Of a DNA stretch of 28,520 bases, positions 11,001-28,520 are shown one piece after another. How positions within the stretch are numbered: position 1 is the stretch's first letter; every line of letters begins with the position of its first letter. The notes below the pieces were generated by a model that saw nothing but the letters and a program-made list of their open reading frames with translations, had not been told where the DNA came from and ran no database searches. The position numbers and the translations under genes were made by a program. The stretch comes from Gemmatimonadota bacterium (lineage in GTDB: Bacteria; 4572-55; J002), in contig RFFQ01000064.1 of the NCBI GenBank assembly GCA_003697105.1, positions 1-28,520 of the forward strand. Reading direction: 5' to 3'.

Positions 11001-13487
11001 TTGGTCGAGTACAATCAGATCGATGGTGGTCTCTTTGTCGAGTTCGGCGTAACCTTCCGGACGGCGTAGCCCCACGTATGCGCTGTACGGGTGGACATCA
11101 AATTGGGTGACGTTTGTCACACCCCGCCCGCCAACTTCCAGCACCGTTGCGGAGACCGTGCCTTGGAGCATCCCCGCCGGCTTCAGATTGGGGGGGATGT
11201 CTAGCGTGGTGCGCAGTTGCCCTTCCGCATTTAGCTTATCTTCCACTAAAGTCTCGCTGATGGACGAAAAGGAGTGATCCGGGTTGTCATAGGTAAAAGA
11301 ACGATATTGAACTGGCGGTTCGTATGGTTTTGCCGTCAGGCGGTACTCTATTTTAACGCGGTTGCCTGCCGCCGGCGGTCCAAAAAGATTCATTCCGGTA
11401 ACCTGAATTTGCACTGCATCACCAATCATATAGACTTCCCGATCCGTGTTCACCGTCACGTTGATACGATCCGGCACGAATTCTTCCACGTTAAAGGTGG
11501 CACGCCCGATCTCTTGGGTATCACCGATCATCATTTTAGCGGTGTACTGTCCGGTGCGGGCAAAATTGGCAAGGGGTACATCGAACGAAATCATGCCTGT
11601 GGTACCGGTTTGTTGCCGTTGTTCGTTTACAATGCGGGAATCGGGAGCGACCACCTCCAACCGTACCGGGAAGGAGGGCGGCACCGCCGTATTCACCCCG
11701 CGCACAATGGTGGTCAAATGCGCGGTCTCGCCGGGGCGATATATATCCCGATCCGGATAGACAAAGGCACTATACCCATTGAGGAGTACCGGATCGCCGC
11801 TGGCGTCGAAGTCAGTCAAGTCGATCTCGCGCTTAAATTCCACAAAGGAGACATCCTCATCTTTTTCGGCGATAATCAGATAAGGTTCAAACTCCGCAAA
11901 CGCGGCGCGGACGTTTTGGAACTGGATAAATCCCTCCGCATTGGTTCGACCGCTCAACAGCAACTGGTTGTTGCGGCTTAACACGGAAATTGTCACTTGC
12001 GGGACTGGATCAAGGGTTTCGAGAGAATTGACCCAGACGATCAGATCATCACTGGCGCGTTTGGCCAGAATGCCGAGATCGGTGATCATCACCCATTTAT
12101 CTTTATAACGCCAGTAATATTTCGGGTCTTGTACCCGCAACCGGAAAATACCGGTACGCTCTTCTTGCAGGTACTGTCGCAGGTTGACCGGTGTAATGAC
12201 CTCCTCATTTTGTACCATTGCCACCGGAATTTCGCCGGAAAAAAGCGATTTTCCCATCCGGTTGATGGAAATCCAACTATAATCACTGGTTAAATTCACA
12301 TCCGTGGTCAGATAAACCAGATTGTTGGTATAAACCTTTTCAATGGTGAGTTTGACCGCGTTGATATTGACCGTGGACAGCCCCACATTAAGATTACCCG
12401 ACCGCGCCAAATAAATGCCATCACCTTCAAACCCCACCGAGGGTTCGAGCTGGCGCAACGTGACCGTCTGTTGAAAGGGTGATTGGAGTTTTGCCCCATC
12501 TCGCGCAATGAGTCCCGAACGGATAGTGACGGTGTAGGGTGTCCCGACTTCAAATTGCCCGCTGAGCTTCAGGGCGGTATGACGCTCCTCGATCTGAAAA
12601 TCAACCGCCGGACGAATGGCAATATACGGGCGCGCCACAGCCGAGCGTACCGGTGTATTAAAATTGATGCTAATGGTGCCATACTTACCGGAGGGGTTCA
12701 CGTTTACCTGTTCCACGATCAGGGATTCCGTGCGGTTCAGGGTACGGGTGAGTTCATACGGTTGCGCCAAACCCAAATTGCCACCCACACACCGGATGGC
12801 AGGGTCGATGACGGTCGTGATCTGGCTCACTTGATCCGGATCAATCGTGGTGGTTACCAATTGGATGTAACGCGAGGCTTCTTCTGTGAGAAGGGTGTAT
12901 GCCAATTTGCGGTGGCGATGATCATACAAGGTCAAATGTTGATCGACTTCCGCCGGTTCCACCGGATAATTGAACTCCAAACTGACTAAAATAAAGATGT
13001 GTTCCGGTTCAGCAGGGTCTTGATCCAGTGTGGTGACCAGTTCTTTCACGGCGAGGCGGGGGGTATGGAACCGAAATAGGGTCTCTCCGGTGATTGTTTT
13101 ACCGGGGATAAAATCCCGGTTTACTTCGGCGGTGTATTCGGTGGAGGGTGCCAACTGGACTTCCGGGAATAACCGGAGTTTATCGGGGGCAATCCACTGG
13201 GCTTTAACGGGTAGTTTCGGGGAGAAGGTGACGGGAGGACGACTGAATTCCTGTTCTAAGAGGGAGTCTGTACGGACAGGTTGGGAAAACGTCACCGTTA
13301 TATTGGTGAGGGGGGTTGTTTCGCCCGTCGGGGAAAAATGGGCAATGGTGAGGGTGTTGGTTTCGTGCTCAGATGTGGATTTGATTACCATTAACGCGCC
13401 AGCAATCACCAGCAATGTCGCTAAAATAATCAATCCTCCGGTGAATGATGCCGGCACCTTGCGGGTAGGTGTTGTGGGGTTTGTCAT
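8073..13487 (-). CDS. Bacterial alpha-2-macroglobulin family protein with intact thioester motif
   Basis: 1804 residues. Bacterial macroglobulins are periplasmic protease traps: cleavage exposes a Cys-Gln thioester that covalently captures the protease. Here the thioester motif is CLEQ (Cys1350-Gln1353) in HYPHGCLEQTTSQ, so the trap should be active. Upstream lie repeated macroglobulin beta-domains, including DRDIYRPGETAHL (near residue 580), the bacterial MG2 hallmark. Downstream is an alpha-helical thioester domain (about 1330-1620), then a C-terminal beta domain ending at TIRRF. The N terminus has one hydrophobic helix (about residues 16-36) with no lipobox, so it is probably anchored in the inner membrane by that helix, unlike the E. 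coli lipoprotein YfhM. GGAG lies 7 bases before the ATG. The usual partner pbpC (penicillin-binding protein 1C) is not adjacent. Confidence 0.93.
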   Translation of the reverse strand: MTNPTTPTRKVPASFTGGLIILATLLVIAGALMVIKSTSEHETNTLTIAHFSPTGETTPLTNITVTFSQPVRTDSLLEQEFSRPPVTFSPKLPVKAQWIAPDKLRLFPEVQLAPSTEYTAEVNRDFIPGKTITGETLFRFHTPRLAVKELVTTLDQDPAEPEHIFILVSLEFNYPVEPAEVDQHLTLYDHRHRKLAYTLLTEEASRYIQLVTTTIDPDQVSQITTVIDPAIRCVGGNLGLAQPYELTRTLNRTESLIVEQVNVNPSGKYGTISINFNTPVRSAVARPYIAIRPAVDFQIEERHTALKLSGQFEVGTPYTVTIRSGLIARDGAKLQSPFQQTVTLRQLEPSVGFEGDGIYLARSGNLNVGLSTVNINAVKLTIEKVYTNNLVYLTTDVNLTSDYSWISINRMGKSLFSGEIPVAMVQNEEVITPVNLRQYLQEERTGIFRLRVQDPKYYWRYKDKWVMITDLGILAKRASDDLIVWVNSLETLDPVPQVTISVLSRNNQLLLSGRTNAEGFIQFQNVRAAFAEFEPYLIIAEKDEDVSFVEFKREIDLTDFDASGDPVLLNGYSAFVYPDRDIYRPGETAHLTTIVRGVNTAVPPSFPVRLEVVAPDSRIVNEQRQQTGTTGMISFDVPLANFARTGQYTAKMMIGDTQEIGRATFNVEEFVPDRINVTVNTDREVYMIGDAVQIQVTGMNLFGPPAAGNRVKIEYRLTAKPYEPPVQYRSFTYDNPDHSFSSISETLVEDKLNAEGQLRTTLDIPPNLKPAGMLQGTVSATVLEVGGRGVTNVTQFDVHPYSAYVGLRRPEGYAELDKETTIDLIVLDQQGQPVAGHTVSISISRIYWQSVLRQQSNGRTRYVSEKQEHVVKQDQITSSGDIQHIRFTPHEYGQYRVEVTDPASGHRAAIAFYAAGWGWSPWSMEHPDRLELDVEKEHYRVGETATIQVKAPFQQGKLLITVERDRILSSQVLDMPENTATLSIPVEASFQPNVYVSATLIRSTGNLEKYAPVRAFGVVPLQVDSREHQLDIDLNTPEVIKPHQTLSIDVSVHGNAGKPVQMTLAAVDEGICQLTGFRTPDPFGHFYGKKRLEVQTYDLYGLILPEVEGAEVLLSPSGDAAYRKKRLNPVSVQRIRPVALWSGMVLTDGAGNGKIKLAVPQFNGRLRLMAVAAVDQKFGSAEKQVIVRDPIVLTPTIPLFIASGDQFEIPVSLFNGTGKTGRFTVQLTATGAVDISQATQQITLEDQAEGVVRFPVTAGNQIGTVTVTLTASGNGNQTRVMEDVPLRPSNPPITITGSGAVTGGKTQTFDFPQTVNFMPGTAEYKLTISPLPALELGPGLSYLLHYPHGCLEQTTSQVFPLLYFDAVARVVDPDLFQKNSADYYLNEGIKKLESMLLPSGQFMYWPGGSESHTWSSIYAAHFLVEARLNGYHVNERVYRQMLRGLRDITLNTGDTRWAINQTAYACYVLAKAGQPEKSVMYYLKNNRLDQMGDEGQYLLAGAFAVAGDQTSALELLPKTVRPPELNQRQTGENFYSPMRAKAIMLAVLADSQPDHASVPRLVEELSQTLRQQHGWDYTTQDAAYSYLALGKVFHKQPSTDYRGSVRVGDTLYQTFGGKDTFLAGQDWAQKTVTIQNEGPGTCYFYWQAFGVPLDAGIAEVDAGLRVRREYLTPAGSRADYQQFQSGDLIICKITLEALAENLDNVAVVDLLPAGFQIENPRLQSRQNIPWIDSKTQFETAHLDIRDDRMIIFGNLIRRQPKTFYYGLRGINPGTFTLPPITAEAMYNPATRSVASSGQITIRRF

Positions 13488-14657: not shown

Positions 14658-17072
14658 TTACCGCAATAGCACCATGGATTGGGTTACTTGCCCGGATGGG
14701 GTTTCCAAGCGATAAAAATAGATACCGCTTCGCACAGCTTGCCCGTGTGCATCTGTACCATGCCACTGCACCCGATGTTGCCCCGCATTTCGTTCTTCAT
14801 CCATTAGGGTTTGGACCAATTTTCCACTGGCGTCATAGATGCGTAAAAGTGCATGAGTTCGCCACGGCAGATCAAACCGGATTGTTGTCAGTGGATTAAA
14901 TGGATTGGGGTAGTTGGGGTACAAGGTGAGGTGTTGCGGGCTGGCAAGGGTGGTGGTATGTTCTACGCCCACATAAATTTCTTGCCCGTAAACGGCAACA
15001 TCATCGATAAACCAGCCCCGGTCGCGAGAGTCAGCGCTACTAAACCGGAAGCGAAACTGGACGGTCTCAAACAGATAATCGGTCAGATCAAATTGCACAT
15101 GATGCCACACGGACTGGTAGCCGCTGAAGCCCGGTTCATTGTCCAGCACGGTGATGCGGCTACGGGGATAGCCGCCTTCCGGCTCGATCACCGTCCATGT
15201 TTCGCCGCCATCGGTGGTAATTTGCACGTTGCCGCCATCCGTGCTACGGATACGGTACCAATGGTAAAAGGCAAGTGCCACCTGCCCGGTGGCATCCGGC
15301 ACGAGCGTATAAGTGGGGCTGTACAAATAAAAGCTGGAGAGGGGGCGGTACAACTCGTCTAATTCCGTTCCCCACACGGTACTGTCGGAATGCGCACTGG
15401 CGGGACCGCCACTACTGGCGGGAACACCCCATTGCCAGCCACTGCTATCGGAAGACCAAAAGCCCCCCGGTGTGCCCTCAAAATCGATCACTGGAATCAG
15501 GGTGAAATCGATGTCCAGCACTGTGCTATCTTCAATGGTGATGGGGCGTTCCTGAATGTCATACCCCGCTTTTTGGATGGATAATTGGTAATGATTACCG
15601 GTCTCGATCTCTTCAAACCGGTAGAATCCAGAGGAATCGGTGATGATGTGTTGGCTTCCCACGTACGGATCGCGGAACGTCACGGTGGCGCCGGCAAGTG
15701 GTTGGGCGATCGACGCGCCATCAAACACCATCCCTTGAAGTGTACCGTAGCCCGGTTCCTCAAGTTCGATTTCCAAATCGATCACAGGGTTTGCTGGGGT
15801 GAGCATCAGGTTGGGGATGATCCGGGTGCCATAAGCGGGGTGCGTAATGCGCAAGGTATATGAGGTTGTGTTGGAAAAGCGCATCAGCCGCCGGAATCGT
15901 CCAAATGAATCGGTGGTGCGGGGGGGGAGGCGCTCACTATCGATTTCAACCACTTGCACCTGTGCGCCGGAAATTACGGAATCGGTGATCGCATCACGCA
16001 CAATTCCGGTCAACACGCCCCCGGATACCCCGTGTACGCGCCGGAACAGTTCATATATACCGTTCAGATTTCGTTGGCACACATCATCAATCAGTGCCGC
16101 TTCACGGGGTTGAATGCGTTCGCAGGCGCCCACTTCCACCGTCAAGGCAAAACTACCGAGTTCCGCATAAAGCCAATTATTGGCAAAGCCTCTATTTTCC
16201 GATGTGCGGAGAGTGCCGTACACCCCATCCAAACTATCCGTGGGGATAAGCCCCGCCATCGTGCGGGCAAGGTCGGAAATGTGGACATAATCCGGGGAAA
16301 GCCCGTAACGTCCCGTCCACGGGAAAATCACTTTTTCACTGTAATTTCCAGAACGGGAACTGTGATATATCACGCTGATACTGGGACGGATGTCACTGGC
16401 AAGGTTGGCGAGGGCGAGGGCTTCCGGTTCGGAAAAGGGAGCTTCGCCGCCGTAATATTCGCTACACGGTTCGTCGTTGTCGGGGTTGCCTTCCCATCCC
16501 CAACTGAAATTCCGGTTCAGGTCCACTCCGTCGCAATCGGAACGGTCAATCAAGGTACAAACTCCGTTGCCGAGGCAAGGGGCAACGTTATAATCGAAGA
16601 CGCCATTAAGGTTATTATCATGCTTGGTTTTGCGATAACAGATGTCGGTACCCTCCATGACGACCTGATGCCCATCTGGGTTGCCGATGGGTACAATCCA
16701 GATTTCGGTGTGGCTGACCCAATAGGTCAGGGAGTCACTTTCCCCATATTGGGTGAGCAAATTCTCAATGAGCATCATACTAATTTCGACCCCTAAAATC
16801 TCTTCCGCGTGAATGTGCCCATCAATTAGGATCGTGGGTTCATCTTCATCGATTTGCGGATGATCCGATATTTTGATTGCCCAAATATCACGTCCTTCTA
16901 AACTTTGACCGATGCTTTGTATCCGGCAGATATTCGGATAGCTTTCCGCGTATTGCTGTAGCTCATCAGTGACCTCGTCATAGGTGTGAAAGCGTTCAAT
17001 GGGGGGATCGAAATCTTGTGCAAAACTGAAGGCTGGCAGGGTGATTATCAACAAAAATAGTAGTTTTTTCAT
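14658..17072 (-). CDS. Secreted M14 zinc carboxypeptidase with FlgD-like sorting tail
   Basis: 804 residues. A Sec signal peptide occupies 1-18 (MKKLLFLLIITLPAFSFA|Q). The M14 metallopeptidase domain (about 25-345) has the zinc ligands His88 and Glu91 (GHIHAEE) and His237 (VIYHSSRS), substrate-binding Arg187 (DLNRNFSW) and catalytic Glu313 (LTVEVGA), so it should be active. Two carboxypeptidase-regulatory-like beta domains follow (about 353-440 and 442-530). Next is a jelly-roll/MAM-like domain (about 531-700) with GGETWTVI and RGWFIDDVAVYG. A C-terminal FlgD-like tail (about 714-804) has YPNYPNPFNPLTTIRFDLP and SGIYFYRLE...MVLLR. The tail suggests export across the outer membrane by a type IX-like route. 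GGAGG lies 5 bases before the ATG, preceded by three GATAAC-type heptads. Confidence 0.93.
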   Translation of the reverse strand: MKKLLFLLIITLPAFSFAQDFDPPIERFHTYDEVTDELQQYAESYPNICRIQSIGQSLEGRDIWAIKISDHPQIDEDEPTILIDGHIHAEEILGVEISMMLIENLLTQYGESDSLTYWVSHTEIWIVPIGNPDGHQVVMEGTDICYRKTKHDNNLNGVFDYNVAPCLGNGVCTLIDRSDCDGVDLNRNFSWGWEGNPDNDEPCSEYYGGEAPFSEPEALALANLASDIRPSISVIYHSSRSGNYSEKVIFPWTGRYGLSPDYVHISDLARTMAGLIPTDSLDGVYGTLRTSENRGFANNWLYAELGSFALTVEVGACERIQPREAALIDDVCQRNLNGIYELFRRVHGVSGGVLTGIVRDAITDSVISGAQVQVVEIDSERLPPRTTDSFGRFRRLMRFSNTTSYTLRITHPAYGTRIIPNLMLTPANPVIDLEIELEEPGYGTLQGMVFDGASIAQPLAGATVTFRDPYVGSQHIITDSSGFYRFEEIETGNHYQLSIQKAGYDIQERPITIEDSTVLDIDFTLIPVIDFEGTPGGFWSSDSSGWQWGVPASSGGPASAHSDSTVWGTELDELYRPLSSFYLYSPTYTLVPDATGQVALAFYHWYRIRSTDGGNVQITTDGGETWTVIEPEGGYPRSRITVLDNEPGFSGYQSVWHHVQFDLTDYLFETVQFRFRFSSADSRDRGWFIDDVAVYGQEIYVGVEHTTTLASPQHLTLYPNYPNPFNPLTTIRFDLPWRTHALLRIYDASGKLVQTLMDEERNAGQHRVQWHGTDAHGQAVRSGIYFYRLETPSGQVTQSMVLLR

Positions 17073-17675: not shown

Positions 17676-20600
17676 ATGAAACATTGGTTTGGTTTACTGT
17701 TTATAGGGCTGAGTGTTGTCACCTGCCTTCATGCCGTACCCCTCAAATTTGAGCGGTTGACCCGGGATAATGGGTTATCCCACCAGACCGTCTTTTCTGT
17801 AACGCAGGATTCGACGGGGTTTATGTGGTTTGGTACGCTGGAAGGGGTCAACCGGTATGATGGTTACGAATTTAAGGTGTACCGGAACAACCCGCAGGAC
17901 TCGCACTCGCTTTCTGAGGATAACGCCGGCAATATTTATCTGGGTCGCGGTGATGTGATATGGATCGGGACATGGGGCGGCGGTTTGAATCGATTAAATT
18001 TGCGGGATGAAACCGTCACGCATTATACCCACGATCCGGCAGATTCTACTTCCATCAGTGATAATCGGGTGCAATGTATTGTGGAAGATTCGCAGGGTTA
18101 CGTGTGGGTTGGTACGCGCGACGGCGGGTTAAATCAATTTGACCCTCGCACAGGGATGGCGATCCACCAGTACCGGCATGACCCCACCGATTCAACCTCA
18201 CTTAGTCACAACCGGATTTGGGCATTGCAAACCGATGCGGCGGGCTATATCTGGGCGGGTACCAGTGATGGCTTAAACCGGATTGACCCCCGCACGCATA
18301 CCGTGACACGCTATCTGCAAGACCCTTCCACGGCATTGGGACGCAGCCGCAATTTAATCCGTACGATCTACCGGGCATCCGATGGCTTGATTTGGGTGGG
18401 TACGCGCGAAGGGATCAGCATCTTTGACCCGTCACAGGAGCAGTTTATCCGCCATTACCGGCATGACCCCCACAACAAAAACAGCCTTAGCGGGAATGTG
18501 ATCAACTGTATTTACGAGTATGACGGCATCTTTTGGATTGGTACATACGGTTTTGGTCTTAACCGCTTTGACCCCCGCACTGAAACCTTCCTCCACTACC
18601 GCTACAATTCATATGATCTCACGTCATTAAGTGATGATGATATTCGTGATATTTATGTGGATCACGCTCAAAATTTGTGGTTGGCAACGCGCGGCGGGGG
18701 CATTAATAAAGCCGATTTGAAACCCCCTAAATTTTACCACGTTCGAGGCATTCCCGAGACGGAAAATACCTTGAGTGACAACAGCGTCTGGGCGATCTGG
18801 CAAGACCGTACCGGACGGCTATGGGTCGGTACGAAACGTGGCGGATTGAATCTTATCACCGAAGCAAACGGGCATGTGAACTATCGGGTCTTCCAAAATG
18901 ATCCAAATGATCCGTACAGTATTAGTCAAAACAGCATTTGGGCGGTGGTAGAAGATGCACAAGGTACGATGTGGTTTGGTACCGGTACTGGCGTGGATAA
19001 ATTGGTGTGGGAGGGTGACCAACCCCGCTTTATTCATTATGACCATCATTCCAAAGAGCAATCCAGCATTGAGGAACTGTACCAAGACCGGGCGGGGCGG
19101 TTTTGGGTTGGTACTAATGGGGCGGGCTTGGCATTATTTGACCCCGTCATGGGTACGTTTGACTATTTTGAGCGGGTTAAAGGCGATTCCCTAAGCCTGA
19201 GTGATAATGTAATATGGTCACTCCTCGAAGATTCAGCAGGAAATTTTTGGGTCGGTACGGGCAATGGGCTGAATCGGATGGATCGGGAACGGGGGGAATT
19301 CCGGCGCTATTTCCATGAACGGGACAACCCGAACAGCCTCATCCATAACCGGATTTGGTCGATGTATGAAGACCGGCAGGGTATCCTCTGGTTCGGTACC
19401 GGGGGCGGTTTGAGTCGATTTGACCCGCGTTCGGAACGTTTTACCGCCTACACGGAGCAGGACGGGTTGGCGAATAACGCAATCTATGGCATCGCGGAAG
19501 ATGCGCAGGGGAATCTCTGGTTGAGTACCAACAAAGGGGTTTCCAAATTTAACCCCTACAGCCGCACCTTTCGTAATTATGATGCAACCGACGGCTTGCA
19601 GAGCAACGAATTTCATCCGGGGGCATCTTTTCAAAGTGCCGATGGCGAAATCTTCTTTGGGGGGGTCAATGGATTTAACCGATTTTATCCGGAGCAGGTC
19701 AAAGACAATCCCCACGTGCCGCCATTGGTATTGACCCATTTTACCTTATTTGGCAAACGTGTGACCTTCGACCAGAACATCACCTACCTCGATGAAATTC
19801 GTCTTTCCTATACCGATGATTTTTTTGCGTTTGAATTTGCCGCTTTGGATTACACCAATCCGGCAAAAAATCGGTATGCCTACAAATTAGACGGTTTCGA
19901 CCGCGATTGGAACATCGTGAAAAACCGGCGATATGCCAGCTACACCAATTTGGACGGGGGGCACTATATCTTCCGGGTCAAGGGATCGAATAATGACGGG
20001 GTATGGAACGAACAGGGCATCTCTATCCCCATCTATATCACGCCGCCACCGTGGAAAACGTGGTGGGCATACGGGTTTTATGTGATGGGCATTGTGGCGT
20101 TGGTGGGGGTATATGTGCGGGTGAAAACCCGTGCCCACGAAAAAGAGTTAGCCCAACAGCGGGAAATTACCGGACGTTTGCAAAAGCTCGATAAAATGAA
20201 AGATGAGTTTTTGGCGAATACCTCCCATGAGTTGCGAACCCCACTAAACGGGATCATCGGTATAGCAGAATCGTTGTTGGACGGCGCCACCGGTGCGCTA
20301 CCCCCGGAAACCCGTTATAATCTCTCTATTATTCTCTCTAGTGCAACCCGATTGGCAAAACAGGTGGATGATATTCTGGATTTTTCCCGGCTCAAAAATC
20401 GAGACCTGAAACTCAAGCGCAAACCGGTCGATATGTACCAATTGACCCAAGTTGTAGTGGCGTTGATCGAACCATTAGTCGGTAAAAAGGATGTGGTTTT
20501 GCAAAACCACATCCCCCCAGACCTACCGTTTGTGGAAGGGGATGAAGACCGCCTGCAACAAGTGATGTATAATCTGATCGGTAATGCGATCAAATTCACG

Positions 20601-22805
20601 GATATCGGGGAGATTACCATCCGAGGGCGTGAAGTGGATGATATGGTTGAGATTTCCGTGACGGATACCGGGGTGGGTATCCCTGAAGATAAATTTGAAG
20701 TGATTTTTGAATCGTTTGAGCAGGTGGATCGTTCCGATGCACGGGAATTTTCCGGCACGGGGTTGGGGTTAACCATCACCAAAAAATTGGTGGAGCTCCA
20801 TGGCGGTGAAATCACAGTCCGTTCTGAGGTCGGCAAAGGGTCAACTTTTTCCTTCACCCTACCGGTCAGCAGTAAACCGCCGGAATATCGCGTGTATGAT
20901 GCGCTTCGTTTGGCTACGGGACATCTGGTTGGTACGCCGGAAGAGACGGAGATCGAACCGGAGGTTCTCCAACCCGTTGCTCCTACCGGCGAACCGGCAG
21001 ATGAACACCGGTTTAAGATTATGATCGTTGATGATGAACCGGTGAATTTGCAGGTACTAACAAATCATCTCTCGCTCCAAAATTATGCGATTACGCAAGC
21101 CCTGAATGGAATGGAAGCGTTGCACACAATTGAGGTGTACGGGAAGCCGGATTTAATCCTGTTGGATGTGATGATGCCCCGCATGTCGGGGATCGATGTC
21201 TGCCAGCGTATCCGTCAAAAGTACTCTGCCCATGAACTGCCGATCATTCTGCTGACGGCTAAAACCCAAGCCTCTGACCTCGTACAAGGATTTGCCGCCG
21301 GTGCGAATGATTATGTCACCAAGCCGTTTTCTAAAAATGCACTGTTGGCACGGATTCGCACCCATATCCAACTTTCGGAATACAGTATTGCATTGACACG
21401 TGCCAAGGATCGATTGGAAATTTTGCTGGAGGGGACAAAAGAGATGGCAGCGGCGCCCGAACGATTTTCCGCGATGGTACGGGCAACCAGTGCAATCTTG
21501 CAAGAAATTCCGGTTTCAACCCCGCCCCGGGTGGAGATTTATCTAACCTGTAATGAGACAGATCACTACGGTAAATTTTATTATTTTCAGGTGGAAACAG
21601 AACAAGTAGAGCATACCATCCAGTTGACGGTTACCGACCCCGATCAGGTAATGCCAGAGATTTTGGAGCGGCTGCCCGAGCCGTTGGATACTCTGCGCAC
21701 AACCCAACTTCAGGAGGATATGCTGATTCTACCGGTGGTACAACAGGACGTTTTGCTGGGAGTACTGCGGCTTCGCGGTATTGACCCCCTCTTGGTACGG
21801 GATGACGATTATGACTTTTTGGAAACCCTCGTCCAGTCGCTGGCGATTTCGCTGGAAAACATCAATTTCCGGCAGGAACTGGAAGATTTGGTTGCCCGCC
21901 GGACGATTCAGTTGCGCGAGGCACAAGCTCGGTTGGTCAAATTGGAGAAAGAAGCGACCGAAAAGCAGATGGCGGGCGGTTTTGCCCACGAAATGCGAAA
22001 TGCACTCACCAGCGCTCAAACCTTTGTAGAAAAAGCATTGACGGAAGATGAACATGGGGAAGAGATCAGTTTAAGCGTGGTCAATAGCCGCCACATGAAA
22101 GAACTCTATTTGATGCTGAAAAACCACATCCCGCACGAGTATCTAAGGCCTGCCGCCGCCGCCATGAAGCAACTGAACGCAAACGAAAAGACCCTAGATG
22201 AAGTGATCCGCATGGTGCGCCAGTCCATTGGGCGGGCGCTTCACATCACCACCCAAATTATGGATTATGCCCGTATTGGGCAGTATAAGCCGGGTACAGA
22301 ACCGGTCCCCTTGAAACCGTTAATCCAAGAGATTCTCCGCGAATCTCGTGATGCGTTTCGTGAGGCGCATATTGAGGTGAGCCTTGACGTTCCAGATGGC
22401 GTGACCTTGATCGGAGATAAAGCCCATTTCTATTCGATCTTCAAAAATTTGATTTTAAATGCCAAAGATGCGCTTTGTGAAGTGCCCCCCCAACAGCCCC
22501 GCCAACTCGCCATCCGCCACCGGCAAAGCAATCACACCGATCAGATTGAGGTGAGTGACACCGGCATTGGTATCGCTGAAACGGATCAGGCAAAAATTTT
22601 TGAACCGTTCTTTTCCTCTAAGCCGACAACCGGCACCGGATTAGGATTAGGAATGGTACAGAAATTGGTCTTTTTATATCAGGGTGAGATTACCATCCAC
22701 AGCCAACTTCATCAGGGAACAACTTTTATCATAAAATTTCCCCAACCTTCAGAAAGACAATTGCCAAATGGCGAAAATCGTGTTAAGATAGGGGAAAATT
22801 CGTGA
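17676..22805 (+). CDS. HTCS-like hybrid sensor with two kinase modules, a receiver and no DNA-binding domain
   Basis: 1709 residues. A signal peptide (1-20) is followed by 14 Reg_prop blades (about 21-690, each with a WxGT...GLNRFDP-type motif), which should fold as two seven-blade propellers. A Y_Y_Y domain (about 695-789) and one membrane helix (about 797-815) come next. Kinase module 1 has His851 (TSHELRTPL), Asn970 in the N-box and DTGVGIP. The receiver (about 1113-1240) has Asp1164 (LLDVMMPR). A GAF-like domain (about 1245-1395) leads through a coiled coil to kinase module 2, with His1438 ([10 protein letters not shown]), Asn1595 and DTGIGIA. In Bacteroidota HTCS the receiver is followed by an AraC-type DNA-binding domain; here that is replaced by GAF plus a second kinase. 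A periplasmic ligand, often a glycan in relatives, is likely but unidentified. GAGGA lies 10 bases before the ATG. Confidence 0.92.
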
Positions 22806-22834
22806 TGTTAATTCCCCCAAAAGGAAATCCCATA

Positions 22835-24109
22835 ATGTCATTTGATGAATTTGATGAACTTCTCGATCAGGACGCGCGGTTCGGCCTACCGGGTGAGGAT
22901 GATGCCGAAAAACCGTTGGTGATTGTTATTGACGATGATGAATCCGTCCGTGAAGCCCTGCGCTTTGCCTTACGGGATTATTACCGCGTCCAATCGTACA
23001 AAAATGGTACGGAAGGCATCCACCATATTGATGCCTCGGCGCATGCCTTGATTTTGGATATTAAAATGAAGGGCAAAGATGGCTTTGAAACGTTTCAGGA
23101 TATTCGGAAAAAGCTCCCTTACCTGCCCATCATTTTTTACTCCGCTTATCAAGATATTAAAGACCCCTATCAGGTGATGAATGAATACCGTCCCTTTGGT
23201 TACATCACCAAAGGGGAACCGGTACGCAAGTTACTGGATTTGGTGAAACTGGCGTTACGGTATTATAAACAAATTCTACGCATCCAGCAGGAATTGATCG
23301 AAAAACACGCCCGACTGGCAGAAAGTGAGCGCCGGAGCGCCTTGGAAGAACTAGCCGGGATGGTGGCGAGCGAACTCAGCAATAGTTTGACCAGTATCAG
23401 TGTACCTGCCGCTCGTATTCATGATTTACCCCCGTTGGATGTCAATAAAATTTGGGAATGTTGGGAATCCGATGAAGAAGGTGTGATCCTGCAACAGTAC
23501 CTGAATGAATGGCAACGAAACTGGGATATTGTTCAGGATGGGGTGGAGTTGATCCAAGTCTCGGAAGAGCGTGCCCGCCAATTTTTGAACGACTTACAAG
23601 GGTTTATCGGTAGCCGTAGCCACCAGTGGGGGCTGGTTGATATTTGCAATGTGCTGGAAGAAGTGTTGCGCCTACAAAAACAACGGTTAAAATCCGTGCG
23701 GGTGATTACCGAATGCGATGGGGATGAAATCGAAATTATTTCCTCCCGCGGGCAACTGGGGCAGATATTTACCAACTTGATTAGCAATGCGTGTGATGCG
23801 ATGAGTGGGCAAGAATATCCGCAACTTCACATCACAATAGTTCGTAAAAACGAGGGTGTTGAGGTTGCCGTGAAAGATAATGGGATCGGGATTGCACCGG
23901 ATCAATTGCCCCATATTTTCAAGCCGTTTTACTCCACAAAAGGGGTGCGAGCGACCGGGTTGGGGCTTTCCATTGTAGAACGAATTATCAAAGCACACAA
24001 AGGCACCATTGCGGTAGAATCCCAGTTGGGTAAAGGTACTACAATCACCTTCTGGCTGCCGCGAGAAATCCCGATGGAAAACGTGCAGATTATCTCTGCG
24101 GTTGAATAG
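22835..24109 (+). CDS. Receiver-ATPase fusion; kinase module lacks the phospho-accepting His
   Basis: 424 residues, cytoplasmic, no membrane helix. The N-terminal receiver (about 27-150) has VIVIDDDES, the phosphorylatable Asp75 (LILDIKMKG) and Lys126 (YITKG). A coiled coil (about 150-170) leads to a HisKA-like helix reading ELAGMVASELSNSLTSI, where Ser179 stands in place of the His of the usual VAHE(I/L). The ATPase domain (about 300-415) keeps N-box Asn318 (NLISNACDAM), DNGIGIA and TGLGLSIVE, so ATP binding is likely kept. The helical hairpin between Ser179 and Asn318 is longer than usual. I chose the ATG at 22835 because AAGGAA lies 8 bases upstream; an earlier ATG at 22805 overlaps the hybrid-sensor stop as TGATG. 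It probably receives phosphate from the preceding sensor and may act as an allosteric or phosphatase partner. Confidence 0.87.
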   Translation: MSFDEFDELLDQDARFGLPGEDDAEKPLVIVIDDDESVREALRFALRDYYRVQSYKNGTEGIHHIDASAHALILDIKMKGKDGFETFQDIRKKLPYLPIIFYSAYQDIKDPYQVMNEYRPFGYITKGEPVRKLLDLVKLALRYYKQILRIQQELIEKHARLAESERRSALEELAGMVASELSNSLTSISVPAARIHDLPPLDVNKIWECWESDEEGVILQQYLNEWQRNWDIVQDGVELIQVSEERARQFLNDLQGFIGSRSHQWGLVDICNVLEEVLRLQKQRLKSVRVITECDGDEIEIISSRGQLGQIFTNLISNACDAMSGQEYPQLHITIVRKNEGVEVAVKDNGIGIAPDQLPHIFKPFYSTKGVRATGLGLSIVERIIKAHKGTIAVESQLGKGTTITFWLPREIPMENVQIISAVE

Positions 24110-24136: not shown

Positions 24137-24172
24137 GCCCGTGAGGGGGAAATACCCCTCACGGGCTTTTTT
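24137..24172 (+). terminator. Strong intrinsic terminator ending the sensor operon
   Basis: A perfect 12-bp stem GCCCGTGAGGGG (24137-24148) / CCCCTCACGGGC (24155-24166), loop GAAATA, is followed by six Ts (24167-24172). It lies 28 bases after the receiver-ATPase stop. The opposite strand has only an AATCTTATTTT tract, so it may also stop the convergent apbE transcript but less well. The apbE stop codon sits within the right arm. Confidence 0.93.
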
Positions 24173-25205
24173 GGGTTTGGTAGGTCTGTTGTGTCGGGAA
24201 AAACTCCAAGTGGTAATCGTGTACTAAGGTGGAATCCAGATGCACGTTGCCGGATTCATCGATTCGTAAATAGGGATATTCCGGTTTCGGGTGGATGCTG
24301 AGGAGCGAATCCCCGACGACAAAGAAAAAGGTCGCCATTACATCTGCCGTTTCGGCAGTGGGAGCCAGAACCGTAACACTTTGGCACTGCCGGGCAGGAT
24401 AACCGGTGCGAGGGTCTAAAATGTGATGATAGCGAATGTCATCAATGATGGTGTAGCGCTCGTAATCTCCACTGGTCGCGATTGCAGAATTGGTGATTTC
24501 CAGTTTTGCCAACAGCGCTTCTGGCTGGCGCGGATGTTTAATGCCGATCACCCATCGTTGGTCTTCAAACTTAAAACCGGAGGCGTAAATATCGCCTCCG
24601 GCGTTGATCAGAAAGTCTGTAATTCCTTGCTCCCTCAAGGTTGCTGCAGCGCGGTCAATGGCATAACCTTTGGCAATCCCTCCCAAGTCGATCTGCATAC
24701 CCGGTATGGCAAACGCAACGGTTGTGTCTGCCGCATTGAGATCTAACTGGTGATAATCGACTTTTGCCCGCAATGGTTCGATTTCCTCTGGATACGGCAG
24801 GGTAATTTCGTCCTCACCACTGAATCCCCAACGTTTGCTCAGTACCCCAATGGTCACATCAAATAGACCGTTTGTCTGCTCGGCGTAGTGAATTGCCCGT
24901 TCTAAAATAGCGAACGTTTCCGCACTGACCTTGACCGGGTATTCACTGGCATGGGCGTTGATTCGGGCGATTTCACTCTCCGGTAGGTGGGAACTCAGCA
25001 GATGTTCCACCCGCTCCATCTCGTGGAAAGCGTGATAAAATGAGGTCCGGCACGCTTCCACATTCGGGTGCATGGCTTTTATTTCCACCAGCGTACCCAT
25101 CAAATATTTGGTGGCGCTGACTTCAAACTGCATCTCTTCTGCCGGTGTCGTTCCAGCGATCATCAGTGTCACGTAGAACAAAACTCGGACATTAACCCGC
25201 CACAC
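24159..25205 (-). CDS. apbE: FAD:protein FMN transferase (flavin transferase), exported
   Basis: 348 residues from the chosen start. ApbE cleaves FAD and attaches FMN through a phosphoester to Thr/Ser of extracytoplasmic proteins, using Mg2+. Family motifs are MGTLVEI, GLFDVTIG, DLGGIAKGYAIDRAA, INAGGDIYASG, ATSGDYERY and HILDPRTGYPA, then ETADVMATFFFVVG. I chose GTG at 25205 because GGAG lies 6 bases upstream and it gives a good signal peptide (MWRVNVRVLFYVTLMIAG); the in-frame ATG at 25232 has no ribosome site and lies further inside the upstream gene. It overlaps the NusG_II gene by 14 bases. The last codons and TGA are built from the terminator stem. No neighbour shows a canonical (S/T)GAT acceptor, so its substrate is uncertain. 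Confidence 0.93.
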   Translation of the reverse strand: MWRVNVRVLFYVTLMIAGTTPAEEMQFEVSATKYLMGTLVEIKAMHPNVEACRTSFYHAFHEMERVEHLLSSHLPESEIARINAHASEYPVKVSAETFAILERAIHYAEQTNGLFDVTIGVLSKRWGFSGEDEITLPYPEEIEPLRAKVDYHQLDLNAADTTVAFAIPGMQIDLGGIAKGYAIDRAAATLREQGITDFLINAGGDIYASGFKFEDQRWVIGIKHPRQPEALLAKLEITNSAIATSGDYERYTIIDDIRYHHILDPRTGYPARQCQSVTVLAPTAETADVMATFFFVVGDSLLSIHPKPEYPYLRIDESGNVHLDSTLVHDYHLEFFPTQQTYQTQKSP

Positions 25206-25857
25206 TGTCCACTCCGTACGGTGAAATTCCATCTAGTGAAACTTGAATTTGGTTTGGAATGCAAACCAGATGTTGTCCGGCTTGATGAATTGCACCCATT
25301 TTTTGGCAGGTTTGATGCCGGCATTCCGCCGCCACAATCCGCACCTTGCCATTTTGGATGTGAACAACAACGTTGCCTTTCAGACCCTCCAGTTCCATTT
25401 CGGTATCCTGATGTAAGGGGTGCCGGACGAGTTGTTCATTACCACGATAAATATACACGTGTTGCGGTGTTGTGGTGAATGCCCCGGATACCAACCGGAT
25501 TAATATTGGGTTTTCTATTACTTGATCCCGGGCGAATTCACGGTAAATTTCTGCTAACCGGCACGATAGGTCATCGGTTTGCTGTTTGAAATTGATGAGG
25601 CGTTGATTCCGAATCAGTACCAAATCAGCGAGATGGTAGCCACTGAGAGGCACCTCCGAATAGCTGATTGTGCCACTTGCAAGTGCCGATCCCCGTAGAG
25701 CGGATTGAATGCGGTTCACGGCAATATCCGGTTGGGGTACGATCAAGGTTAAGGAAAAATCGGTAGTACGTGCCTGAGCAGAAACCGGTATAAACGGACT
25801 GAGTATCAGCCCGGAAGCAAACAGGGTACTCTGCTTGATAAAATCTCGACGATTCAT
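25192..25857 (-). CDS. Tat-exported protein with NusG domain II-like C-terminal domain
   Basis: 221 residues. The start MNRRDFIKQS carries a twin-arginine motif, followed by a hydrophobic stretch and a cleavage site near VSAQA (about residue 29). The central region (about 30-150) is not recognised. The C-terminal domain (about 155-212) matches NusG_II proteins: GNVVVHIQNGKVRIVAAECR with Cys179, TCQKMG with Cys184, and QHLVCIPNQ with Cys199. Such proteins often sit beside ApbE and Rnf-type or FMN-linked genes. The three Cys could form a disulfide or bind a metal. ATG at 25857 was chosen; AAAGGA lies about 10 bases upstream, and the longer reading frame from 25917 would put sequence before the Tat signal. 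Use of Tat export hints at folding or cofactor loading before export. Confidence 0.8.
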   Translation of the reverse strand: MNRRDFIKQSTLFASGLILSPFIPVSAQARTTDFSLTLIVPQPDIAVNRIQSALRGSALASGTISYSEVPLSGYHLADLVLIRNQRLINFKQQTDDLSCRLAEIYREFARDQVIENPILIRLVSGAFTTTPQHVYIYRGNEQLVRHPLHQDTEMELEGLKGNVVVHIQNGKVRIVAAECRHQTCQKMGAIHQAGQHLVCIPNQIQVSLDGISPYGVDSVAG

Positions 25858-25891
25858 TTGTGATAATCCTTTTGATAGATAAGAAACGGGT

Positions 25892-27064
25892 TCAAATTTC
25901 AAACCGTATCCCCACATTGATAATCAGTGCATACATATTGAGCATGCGGCTGTGCCAATCTGGGGTGGCGGTGTGCCGGTGGTAAACATTCAGCTTAAAA
26001 TGGAATGACTGGTGCTCGGTTGCCAGTGGAATATTCAGGAGCGGCAAGCGAAAACCGTCGGTAAATGTTGCGTTGAACTGGTATTCATTGGAAAACTGCT
26101 CATTGAGTTTGCTATCCACCGTCATGTAGCGTTCCGGCTCGGTGTAATGCTCCCTGAAAAACGATGCCTGCGACTGAAAATAACTGCGGATGCCCCAGCG
26201 CAGTCGTACCTGCCGGTTGTGGAAGTACCGGTTGTATGCCAGCGAGATGGTGTGCGAGTTGACATCCCAATCGTCCCAATAGTAACGATAACCGGCTTCC
26301 AACGCGGAAATATCACTGAGCAGGTAGTTGGTGCGGGTGCCAATCGCTTGCCGCCTCCGAGAATCCGGTACAACGGATTCATACGTACGAACAACCGGGT
26401 TTCCTCGATTATCCGTAGCCAGTATTTGCACCACCTGATAGGGATCGGAGAGAAACCCATTGTACTGAATGTAGGAAAAATTCAGTTGTGAAATCAAGCG
26501 GGGGCTCAAAATCTGCGAGATGCTGGAACTCAGATGCAAGACATCTTTGTTTTTTTGCCATGTGCGGATTTGCGGGGAAACCGTGTCCCAACTACGTACC
26601 ACGCCCGCTTGTAGGGTTGTGTTTTTCTTTGCCAGCGGGTAGGAGATATGGCCCGCTACTGTTGAGGATGTGTAGTCGTGTTCCGTGCTGTAAATGCCAT
26701 TTAGGGAGAGGGTAGCATCTCCAAGAATCTGGGTTATGCCGGCGTTGAGTTCGTGGCGAAGTTCGTCTGGGGTATTGTCCCCGCCACCGCTGGTTTTGTT
26801 TGTGGCAGAGGTCACCCCATCTACTTTGAACGTGCTCCGCATGGAGGCGGCAGAAATTACATCGACCAAATAACGACCCGTGACACTGGTGGACTCCGTG
26901 ACTTTTTTGGTGACCGTAACCGAGGGATAACCGATTTGCACGTTAAATGTATCAAAATAACCGCTCAGATTCACTTGAATTTCATCCGGAGGCAATTCCT
27001 GAGCAAATACCGGCAGTGAGACCCACAGCATCATCACCGCAATTCTTATCCCGAATTTATCCAC
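25892..27064 (-). CDS. DUF3570 outer-membrane beta-barrel protein
   Basis: About 390 residues from a GTG start. The signal peptide is VDKFGIRIAVMMLWVSLPVFAQ. The mature part alternates polar and aromatic residues in strand-length stretches and ends with an aromatic-rich strand terminating in Phe-Glu-Ile (ALIINVGIRFEI), as outer-membrane barrels do. DUF3570 landmarks are GRYLVDVISAAS, SPRLISQLNFSYIQYNGFLSDPY, and YRYYWDDWDVNSHTISLAY. The GTG at 27064 overlaps the DUF4266 stop by 8 bases and has GGGGA about 7 bases upstream; a longer frame to 27163 would lie wholly inside DUF4266. DUF3570 genes are commonly found with DUF4266, TlpA-like and ApbE genes, as here. Function is not established to my knowledge. 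Confidence 0.85.
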   Translation of the reverse strand: MDKFGIRIAVMMLWVSLPVFAQELPPDEIQVNLSGYFDTFNVQIGYPSVTVTKKVTESTSVTGRYLVDVISAASMRSTFKVDGVTSATNKTSGGGDNTPDELRHELNAGITQILGDATLSLNGIYSTEHDYTSSTVAGHISYPLAKKNTTLQAGVVRSWDTVSPQIRTWQKNKDVLHLSSSISQILSPRLISQLNFSYIQYNGFLSDPYQVVQILATDNRGNPVVRTYESVVPDSRRRQAIGTRTNYLLSDISALEAGYRYYWDDWDVNSHTISLAYNRYFHNRQVRLRWGIRSYFQSQASFFREHYTEPERYMTVDSKLNEQFSNEYQFNATFTDGFRLPLLNIPLATEHQSFHFKLNVYHRHTATPDWHSRMLNMYALIINVGIRFEI

Positions 27065-27284
27065 AGCCGCATCCCCCACTTTGTGCTCCCGTGCCCCCTG
27101 CCGAACCCTCACGATAATCCAAATGATGCTCTTCAATACCCTTTTCAATGGGATTGGCATCAAAAATCATGATCGGATCGGCAAGGGATTCACGCTCCCA
27201 TGGTTGAACACGGGTACAGCCGCTAAACAGCGCTGGTGCTCCAATCAGCAATAGCAATACGATACTCCGGTACACTGTTTTCAT
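27057..27284 (-). CDS. DUF4266 small lipoprotein with Gly-rich CGCG tail
   Basis: 75 residues. The lipoprotein signal MKTVYRSIVLLLLIGAPALFSGC puts the lipidated Cys at 23. The short mature peptide begins VQPWERESLADP, the hallmark of DUF4266, and ends REGSAGGTGAQSGGCGCG, with Cys72 and Cys74. The tail could be a metal, heme or thiol-redox site, or a modification target; none is established. ATG overlaps the TlpA stop as ATGA, with AAAGGA about 9 bases upstream. The next gene, DUF3570, starts inside its last codons, so the lipoprotein and barrel are translationally coupled and probably work together at the outer membrane. Confidence 0.85.
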   Translation of the reverse strand: MKTVYRSIVLLLLIGAPALFSGCTRVQPWERESLADPIMIFDANPIEKGIEEHHLDYREGSAGGTGAQSGGCGCG

Positions 27285-27784
27285 TGGTTATCGTCCTTTA
27301 GCAACCGTTGTAATGTGGATTCATATTCCGCTTTTTCCGACGGATTGAAACCGGTGTGAATCGATTGTACAATCCCTTTTTTATCAATAAAATAAGTGGT
27401 TGGCATTGCGGCTAACTCGTAACGAGGCGGTAAGGTTGCCTGTTGATCCCAAAGGATGGGAAAGGTGGGGGCAGGCTCTAAGGAGTCTAAGAACGTTTTC
27501 ATGTTTTTTTCTTTTTTATCAATATTGATCGAGAGCAAGACAAAGTCATCGGACTGGTGCCGGTTGTAAAATTCTACAAAAAAGGGCATTGCCTGTTTGC
27601 AAGGGGTGCACCAGCTTGCCCAGAAGTCGATCAGTACCACTTTTCCCTGAAGATGTGATAGCTGCAGGGTATCTCCTTCCAAGGTGACGCCGTTAATGTC
27701 TGGGGCGGGTTGTCCCACCTCCACCGCATAAAGCGGCAGCGCCAAAAGCAGGATGATCCATCCGGCGGTGATGTTGGTTTTCAT
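27281..27784 (-). CDS. TlpA/ResA-like periplasmic thioredoxin
   Basis: 167 residues. Signal peptide 1-20 (MKTNITAGWIILLLALPLYA). The thioredoxin fold has active-site Cys59 and Cys62 in FWASWCTPCKQAMPF and the cis-Pro loop AAMPTTYFID. The N-terminal VGQPAPDINGVTLEGDT segment is typical of the AhpC/TSA-Redoxin-TlpA group. Relatives reduce the CxxCH cysteines of apocytochromes c or other exported thiols. Directly upstream is a diheme cytochrome and directly downstream a Cys-tailed lipoprotein, both reasonable clients. ATG at 27784 has AGAGGAG about 7 bases upstream; a longer frame to 27835 overlaps the cytochrome gene and spoils the signal peptide. Confidence 0.92.
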   Translation of the reverse strand: MKTNITAGWIILLLALPLYAVEVGQPAPDINGVTLEGDTLQLSHLQGKVVLIDFWASWCTPCKQAMPFFVEFYNRHQSDDFVLLSINIDKKEKNMKTFLDSLEPAPTFPILWDQQATLPPRYELAAMPTTYFIDKKGIVQSIHTGFNPSEKAEYESTLQRLLKDDNQ

Positions 27785-27798
27785 AATTTGCTCCTCTG

Positions 27799-28095
27799 CT
27801 AATCGTCCCATTTTTGACCATGACATTGATAGCACGATGGCGCGATAGACTCAAAGATGCCATCTTCATCCACGTCGGCAGGGCCCCCTCGTAAGTCAGA
27901 ATGGTGGCAATTGGTGGCACTGCAGCCGCTCTCTTGCCGGTATGGATTCTCCAAGCCGGGCTTGTGGAGCGCCGTCCCTTGCCGGATAGTGTGATCCGAC
28001 GGTACACCCGGCTTATCACAACTGCTAATACCCACCGTTAAACCACTCAACGTGATGAAAATCCACCCAATCTTGATTACGTTTTGGTTCTTCAT
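27799..28095 (-). CDS. Small diheme c-type cytochrome lipoprotein
   Basis: 98 residues. A lipoprotein signal ends ISSC (Cys26). Two heme-binding motifs are seen: an expanded C-x4-C-H, CSATNCHH (Cys58, Cys63, His64), and a standard CYQCH (Cys88, Cys91, His92). His35, His44 and His65 are possible distal ligands. Between the hemes is DVDEDGIFE (74-82), which resembles a DxDxDG calcium-binding loop. It is probably a membrane-tethered electron carrier. AAGG lies 8 bases before the ATG. The gene lies 10 bases after a secreted-protein gene and 14 bases before tlpA, so it is in the operon. CX4CH is not a rule-breaking heme site, since some multiheme cytochromes use it, but it could instead be a non-heme site. 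Confidence 0.82.
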   Translation of the reverse strand: MKNQNVIKIGWIFITLSGLTVGISSCDKPGVPSDHTIRQGTALHKPGLENPYRQESGCSATNCHHSDLRGGPADVDEDGIFESIAPSCYQCHGQKWDD

Positions 28096-28105
28096 GTTCT
28101 AAGCC

Positions 28106-28520
28106 TTACTGCAACAAAACCATCGTTTTTTGCTGAGTAAACATCGCGCCTTCCAATTGATAGAAGTATATCCCGGAGGAGACCACATTGCCGTTGGTAT
28201 CGGTACCATCCCATTCCACCGCATAATGATCCGCCACTTGGGGTTGATCGACTAATACCTTAATCAGTTGCCCTCGGAGATTGTAAATGGTGAGCTTGGC
28301 ATGGGTTTCTTCCGGTAGCGAATAACGAATGGTCGTGCTAGGGTTGAAGGGATTAGGGTAATTTTGTCCTAATTCATATCGTCGTGGGGTGTTCAGAGAA
28401 GACCAGCTCTCGATGTTCGTCCCGATGCCTTCGCCGTGCAGGGAGACGTCTGTTTCTGGAGAGCTGGCGTCATTGCTGAAAATGGTACAAGTACCTGTCT
28501 CTTGACCGGTTGTCTGGGGT
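28106..28520 (-). CDS. C-terminal part of a secreted protein with choice-of-anchor-D-like and FlgD-like tail domains (partial)
   Basis: The gene runs off the right edge; 137 residues are visible. The first part (GTCTIFSNDASSPETDVSLHGEG) matches the end of an ASH/choice-of-anchor-D beta domain. After a linker, the tail has YELGQNYPNPFNPSTTIRYSLP, AKLTIYNLRGQLIKVLV and SGIYFYQLE...MVLLQ, the same sorting-type domain as on the M14 carboxypeptidase. It is the most upstream visible gene of the redox operon and is exported, probably to the cell surface. Its catalytic or binding part, which could be a multiheme or other redox domain, is not in the window. I found this frame by translating the minus strand back from the stop at 28108-28106. 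Confidence 0.85.
   Translation of the reverse strand, partial: PQTTGQETGTCTIFSNDASSPETDVSLHGEGIGTNIESWSSLNTPRRYELGQNYPNPFNPSTTIRYSLPEETHAKLTIYNLRGQLIKVLVDQPQVADHYAVEWDGTDTNGNVVSSGIYFYQLEGAMFTQQKTMVLLQ

Follow-up and report, generated by a model that had tools for sequence, protein, structure and literature searches.

The operon described here probably loads flavin cofactors onto an outer-membrane barrel and wires that barrel to thiol and heme electron carriers. With some reserve, we favor reading six of its genes as an electron-transfer module of the cell envelope that belongs with the DUF3570/ApbE flavinylation systems, one in which DsbD/thioredoxin and heme electrons would reach FMN at the outer membrane. 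The window (28,520 nt, the whole stretch of DNA analyzed) is one entire contig out of the 199 that make up a fragmented 4.18-Mb draft genome, and domains were called with Pfam and NCBIfam profiles. Seven ORFs, all on the minus strand, span positions 28519 to 24159 and follow one another at distances of +10, +14, −4, −8, +34, and −41 nt in the direction of transcription. These coordinates bear out the gene order, the gaps of no more than 34 nt, and the three overlaps reported in the initial annotation, and the spacing makes cotranscription likely. A strong bidirectional intrinsic terminator with a 12-bp stem lies at the ApbE stop codon (24137..24166) and closes the unit downstream, while its upstream end lies beyond the contig border at 28520. 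Convergent with the operon across this common terminator are a gene for a very large hybrid two-component sensor and, following it, a receiver-kinase gene (17676-24109). The window also encodes a bacterial alpha-2-macroglobulin homologue of 1804 aa (8073-13487) and an M14 zinc carboxypeptidase that also has carboxypeptidase-regulatory domains and an FlgD_ig-like sorting-tail domain (14658-17072).

The core of this unit (thioredoxin, DUF4266, DUF3570, and ApbE) has been known since 2021, when clusters combining ApbE and DUF3570 with thioredoxin-like and DUF4266 proteins were described by Meheust et al. in eLife (PMC8238504). The DUF4266-DUF3570-ApbE-TlpA association that the initial annotation noted from other genomes is this published cluster, and the label “uncharacterized” given there to the route does not hold, since the core has been published and flavinylation of a DUF3570 protein from Chlorobium (C. 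luteolum) at two [ST]GA[ST] sites has been shown experimentally by co-expression with ApbE (PMC8238504). The window cluster resembles the published ones in its four core families, in a DUF3570 protein with two sites, and in a DUF4266 protein with a C-terminal CXC. It differs from them by an additional diheme lipoprotein and Tat NusG_II protein, by the lack of a clustered DsbD, by flavin motifs reading SAAS and TSAT instead of [ST]GA[ST], and by a thioredoxin of the AhpC-TSA/Redoxin type instead of the Thioredoxin_7 named in that study, whose model scores below cut-off on the window protein. “DsbD system” there denotes clusters with DsbD inside, and 316 similar clusters without DsbD were also reported (PMC8238504); the window cluster has none and is accordingly left outside the strict DsbD class. 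For the DsbD-type system, the main text of that study mentions neither a diheme lipoprotein nor a Tat NusG_II protein. The version carrying both is a recurring variant, of which we found no description in the main text of open-access papers.

The DUF3570 protein (25892..27064, minus strand, with a GTG start or a later one; PF12094, 5e-42) is the predicted ApbE substrate. Two predicted flavinylation sites, both on the minus strand, are present: DVISAAS (26843..26863), conserved as D..[ST]AAS in all seven members of the clade of window-type barrels defined below, and DGVTSAT (26801..26821), conserved as DG[VI]TSA[TS] in the same seven. Across a broader set, a D..[ST][GSAT]A[ST] site occurs one or more times in each of the 23 DUF3570 proteins examined, and among non-overlapping window ORFs of 90 aa or more only DUF3570 has an ApbE-type motif. 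By analogy with the Chlorobium protein, the barrel itself is the predicted flavin acceptor, a point missed in the initial annotation; its “cofactor insertion” stands in the sense of ApbE loading FMN onto DUF3570 and in no other, and its exported redox unit with flavin attachment and an outer-membrane barrel is supported. At both window sites, which lie where such sites are expected, the Gly of the [ST]GA[ST] consensus is replaced, by Ala or Ser, a point against the reading favored here; a Gly to Ala change in another ApbE substrate roughly halved flavinylation (PMC12052999).

Structure models were built on shallow alignments. The AF2 model of DUF3570 has 16 strands (pLDDT 70), and its closest structural matches are the 16-stranded export barrels PelB, PgaA, and BcsC (Z 20-22). 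The window protein has the barrel fold in common with these, whereas sequence identity is 8-10%, the TPR domain is missing, and flavinylation motifs are present; the common fold is no proof of common function. In the model, site 1 falls where strand 3 ends and loop 2 starts, and site 2 within loop 2. Connections after even strands are mostly 2 to 5 residues long, with one of 16, and those after odd strands are often long (2 to 31). If both ends of the barrel are taken as periplasmic, strand 3 would lead into an extracellular loop, the one that bears both flavin sites; by strand parity the two sites may thus face outward, and a route to the cell surface is plausible on this model. The loop itself (28 residues) is modeled at a pLDDT of about 30 and may instead fold into the barrel lumen. 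The C-terminal residue of the barrel, which is aromatic in a beta-signal, is Phe or Tyr in five of the seven clade members, and Ile in the window protein and L112.

Thiol chemistry in the unit is represented by a TlpA/ResA-type periplasmic thioredoxin (27281..27784, minus strand) with a WCTPC active site (AhpC-TSA, 4e-24; ResA subfamily, 7e-30) and by the DUF4266 lipoprotein (27057..27284, minus strand; PF14086, 2e-20), which ends in GGCGCG, a CXC terminus retained in 7/7 clade members. No DsbD gene occurs in the window cluster, and the contig ends just upstream; the genome encodes DsbD on other contigs (C22 and C34), and DsbD is present in all seven clade genomes and in G197. Such a complement could also serve thiol-redox maturation, with the thioredoxin, DUF4266, and NusG_II proteins handling disulfides of exported proteins and the flavin barrel acting as an oxidant sink with no outside acceptor. 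The occurrence of a TlpA/ResA-type thioredoxin together with CXC and CxHxTC thiols in the unit speaks for this, as does the presence of DsbD in every clade genome. We nevertheless regard maturation as unlikely: disulfide exchange would need neither a diheme carrier nor a barrel bearing two covalent flavins on a loop that apparently faces outward, and the operon contains no conserved dedicated client protein.

The electron-transfer reading gains from the recurrence of the two added genes. Our sample comprised a few hundred genomes, with one pattern scan of a species genome collection in addition to single-genome searches. The DUF3570-alignment scan of species genomes returned three, two from KSB1 and one from Eisenbacteria, and the single-genome searches yielded more; of the two genomes searched from the window's phylum, the other had no DUF3570 match, and a scan of viral contigs with DUF3570 returned nothing. 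The exact order CytC-TlpA-DUF4266-DUF3570-NusG_II-ApbE was also found in one KSB1 genome (L036) and in L112, outside the window's phylum. Four more genomes have shorter versions: the second KSB1 locus (L037) lacks only the adjacent ApbE, its closest copy being on another contig; L027 lacks NusG_II; L052 has the first four genes (CytC-TlpA-DUF4266-DUF3570) and no adjacent ApbE; and L028/L038 runs from DUF4266 through DUF3570 to NusG_II, where the contig ends. The seven window-type barrels form one clade (support 100/99), within which the five NusG_II-bearing barrels form a subgroup (95/91). Two f101-family genomes are separated from each other in the tree, and this discordance between grouping and relatedness makes transfer or old duplication likely.

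One alternative would place the cytochrome and NusG_II genes beside a standard DUF3570 cluster by chance; in its favor, NusG_II is absent beside the barrel in 2/7 clade members (TlpA and the cytochrome are both absent in one of seven, on a short contig). This explanation is extremely improbable and already contradicted, as position and order are kept in other genomes at about 50-54% DUF3570 identity, which is more than chance would leave. The cytochrome occurs in 6/7 and NusG_II in 5/7 clade members, as against 0/16 of the other loci in the tree (by Fisher's test, with relatedness ignored, p is 7e-5 for the cytochrome and 6e-4 for NusG_II), and neither was found at the few weaker DUF3570 loci outside the tree that we examined. 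The linkage of both genes to the barrel, which the initial annotation had exposed to refutation by a neighborhood search, thus proved recurrent, and judged by gene neighborhood both products, the diheme lipoprotein as well as the Tat-exported NusG_II protein, genuinely and repeatedly belong to the system.

The first of these members is a small c-type cytochrome lipoprotein of 98 aa (27799..28095, minus strand; lipobox ISSC, followed by D). It carries a CX4CH heme motif, CSATNCH (27904..27924, minus strand), whose Cys, Cys, and His are invariant, and a CXXCH motif, CYQCH (27820..27834, minus strand), invariant across homologues. Both motifs and two further His are invariant in five homologues, with the same residues in a sixth, and this conserved His pattern fits two bis-His hemes. 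As a correction to the initial annotation, one of the two heme motifs is a canonical CXXCH and the other a CX4CH. The closest described domain is that of the TIGR01904 cytochromes, in which a CX4CH motif is likewise followed by a CXXCH motif; the window protein, however, is a stand-alone lipoprotein that scores below the family cut-off (20.5 vs 27 bits), and we regard it as similar and not as a filed member. Asp or Glu directly follows the lipobox Cys (position +2) in 4/6 homologues. By the E. coli rule, an acidic residue at this position is an inner-membrane retention signal, which hints that the cytochrome may be retained there, if the rule holds in these bacteria.

The second member (25192..25857, minus strand) has a Tat-type start with the RR motif MNRRDF and consists of two domains, of which the C-terminal one is NusG domain II (PF07009, 1e-17). 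Its CxHxTC...CIP motif (25255..25323, minus strand) is invariant in four of four aligned homologues. The best Foldseek match of the model (pLDDT 64) is Aquifex NusG, a weak match (E 5e-3), with the stand-alone Lin0431 also matched weakly, and a profile search matched solved stand-alone NusG_II proteins whose names carry no function. A Rieske-like reading of CxHxTC...CIP was considered from the residue pattern and is not claimed here: NusG proteins rank first in the fold search, albeit with a weak model, and no Rieske protein is among the matches listed.

The downstream ApbE FAD:protein FMN transferase (24159..25232, minus strand; PF02424, 2e-84) has an N-terminal signal-like segment, read by eye. 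ApbE lies within 1.5 kb of NusG_II in 14 of the best 30 loci, the window included. The pair occurs at L113 with an FMN_bind substrate and at L114 and L115 with no substrate seen nearby. By these neighborhoods, NusG_II is tied to ApbE more than to the DUF3570 barrel; it appears to accompany flavinylation in general, so its job is likely at ApbE. The L113 row (L113:6594-10403) is a different flavinylation cluster, comprising a barrel-like porin, an FMN_bind protein (DGISGAT), a small membrane protein, Tat NusG_II, and ApbE. The cluster ApbE is the only ApbE in genomes G067 and G298, and the window genome has a second one (L128, contig C24) in an apparent Rnf-type cluster with an FMN_bind-like subunit (DTITGAT). 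Contigs C38 and C29 of G238, compared for a join that would place NusG_II next to ApbE, have no exact end overlap.

Other, small NusG_II genes adjoin genes of the EetB type (PF07456), and EetA is presumably itself a NusG_II protein. PF07456 is the EetB family of FAD exporters (PMC9973259). Gram-positive bacteria use EetA and EetB in flavin-based extracellular electron transfer (PMC9973259, PMC9888254), and on the above presumption their genes would resemble the window in having a NusG_II-domain protein beside ApbE. The window protein differs in its Tat export, its additional N-terminal domain, and its CxHxTC motif, and the substrate here is an outer-membrane barrel. PF07456 had no match in six of the seven clade genomes, including that of the window (G000), and without a linked EetB the window protein is not filed as EetA. 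In one clade genome, NusG_II adjoins PF07456 (G067:C2:123908-124722), and the DUF3570 operon of the same genome has ApbE and no NusG_II.

The seventh ORF (28106..28519, minus strand) encodes a protein with a type IX C-terminal sorting domain over cut-off (Por_Secre_tail, 1e-9; TIGR04183, 38 vs a cut-off of 23 bits); most of this protein is missing, as the 5′ end of its gene lies off the contig. As an extracellular partner it would be part of the system, and a 10-nt gap on the same strand, as well as a different sorting-tail protein of ~545 aa located 3′ of DUF3570 in several other clusters, speak for this. Such membership is highly unlikely, though, because the window copy is cut off at the contig end and no counterpart was found 5′ of the cytochrome in L036, L037, L112, L052, or L027. 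On this evidence from gene order the sorting-tail gene is not counted in the system, and of the three additions credited to this locus by the initial annotation, the cytochrome and NusG_II stand through their recurrent linkage and the sorting-tail gene falls away. Upstream of the cytochrome, L112 has an apparent sensor kinase, and both KSB1 genomes have, just 5′ of it (L036:4990-6603, L037:5613-6476), a divergent DUF2271-domain protein that likewise bears an ApbE-type motif (DAITSAT, DATTSAT), possibly a second flavinylated, perhaps secreted, partner. DUF2271 was rejected as a member of the window cluster, the genome having only a sub-threshold match located elsewhere. In another DUF3570 clade (L031, L053-L058), the sorting-tailed protein, mostly about 545 aa, lies directly 3′ of DUF3570 in the place of ApbE; the L053 copy, the one scanned, contains NHL repeats.

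The proposed mechanism would begin with exported ApbE moving FMN from FAD to the Ser/Thr ending DVISAAS and DGVTSAT, as expected from the family and shown elsewhere for a DUF3570 protein. The 16-stranded barrel, according to the model, would sit in the outer membrane with both FMN sites outward in the loop following strand 3. Electrons would pass from DsbD, encoded elsewhere, to TlpA, on to the DUF4266 CXC thiols, and from there to the barrel flavins, and the bis-His diheme lipoprotein would form a heme branch connecting the quinone/cytochrome pool with the thiol/flavin chain. As its pairing with ApbE persists where the substrate differs, the Tat NusG_II protein would be an aid to that enzyme, supplying flavin, activating it, or performing a redox check. 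Electrons would most likely end on an acceptor on the outside, ferric iron for example; against this module, the operon contains neither a terminal reductase nor a metal transporter.

Reduction might instead serve metal (iron) assimilation, the unit reducing metal on or close to the outer membrane before it is taken up. VIT1 ferrous transporters occur in 25 DUF3570 clusters (PMC8238504), and the L027 cluster is convergent with adjoining genes for an apparent metal-type ABC binding protein and permease, judged by eye. No metal transporter was noticed, however, in the window cluster or in the flanks read for L036, L037, L052, and L112, and we hold assimilation to be quite unlikely.

More specifically for electron transfer to an outside acceptor, we put forward as a tentative and rather doubtful possibility that the DUF3570 protein of this clade is a heme-free conduit across the outer membrane, with two covalent FMNs outside, DUF4266 thiols and the diheme lipoprotein feeding it inside, and NusG_II as a general ApbE accessory. 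The loop position of both flavin sites offers a direct test of electron transfer by DUF3570 across the outer membrane. The heme carrier may link the thiol/flavin chain to respiration, and the tracking of ApbE by NusG_II across substrates may account for a widespread but functionally unassigned domain.
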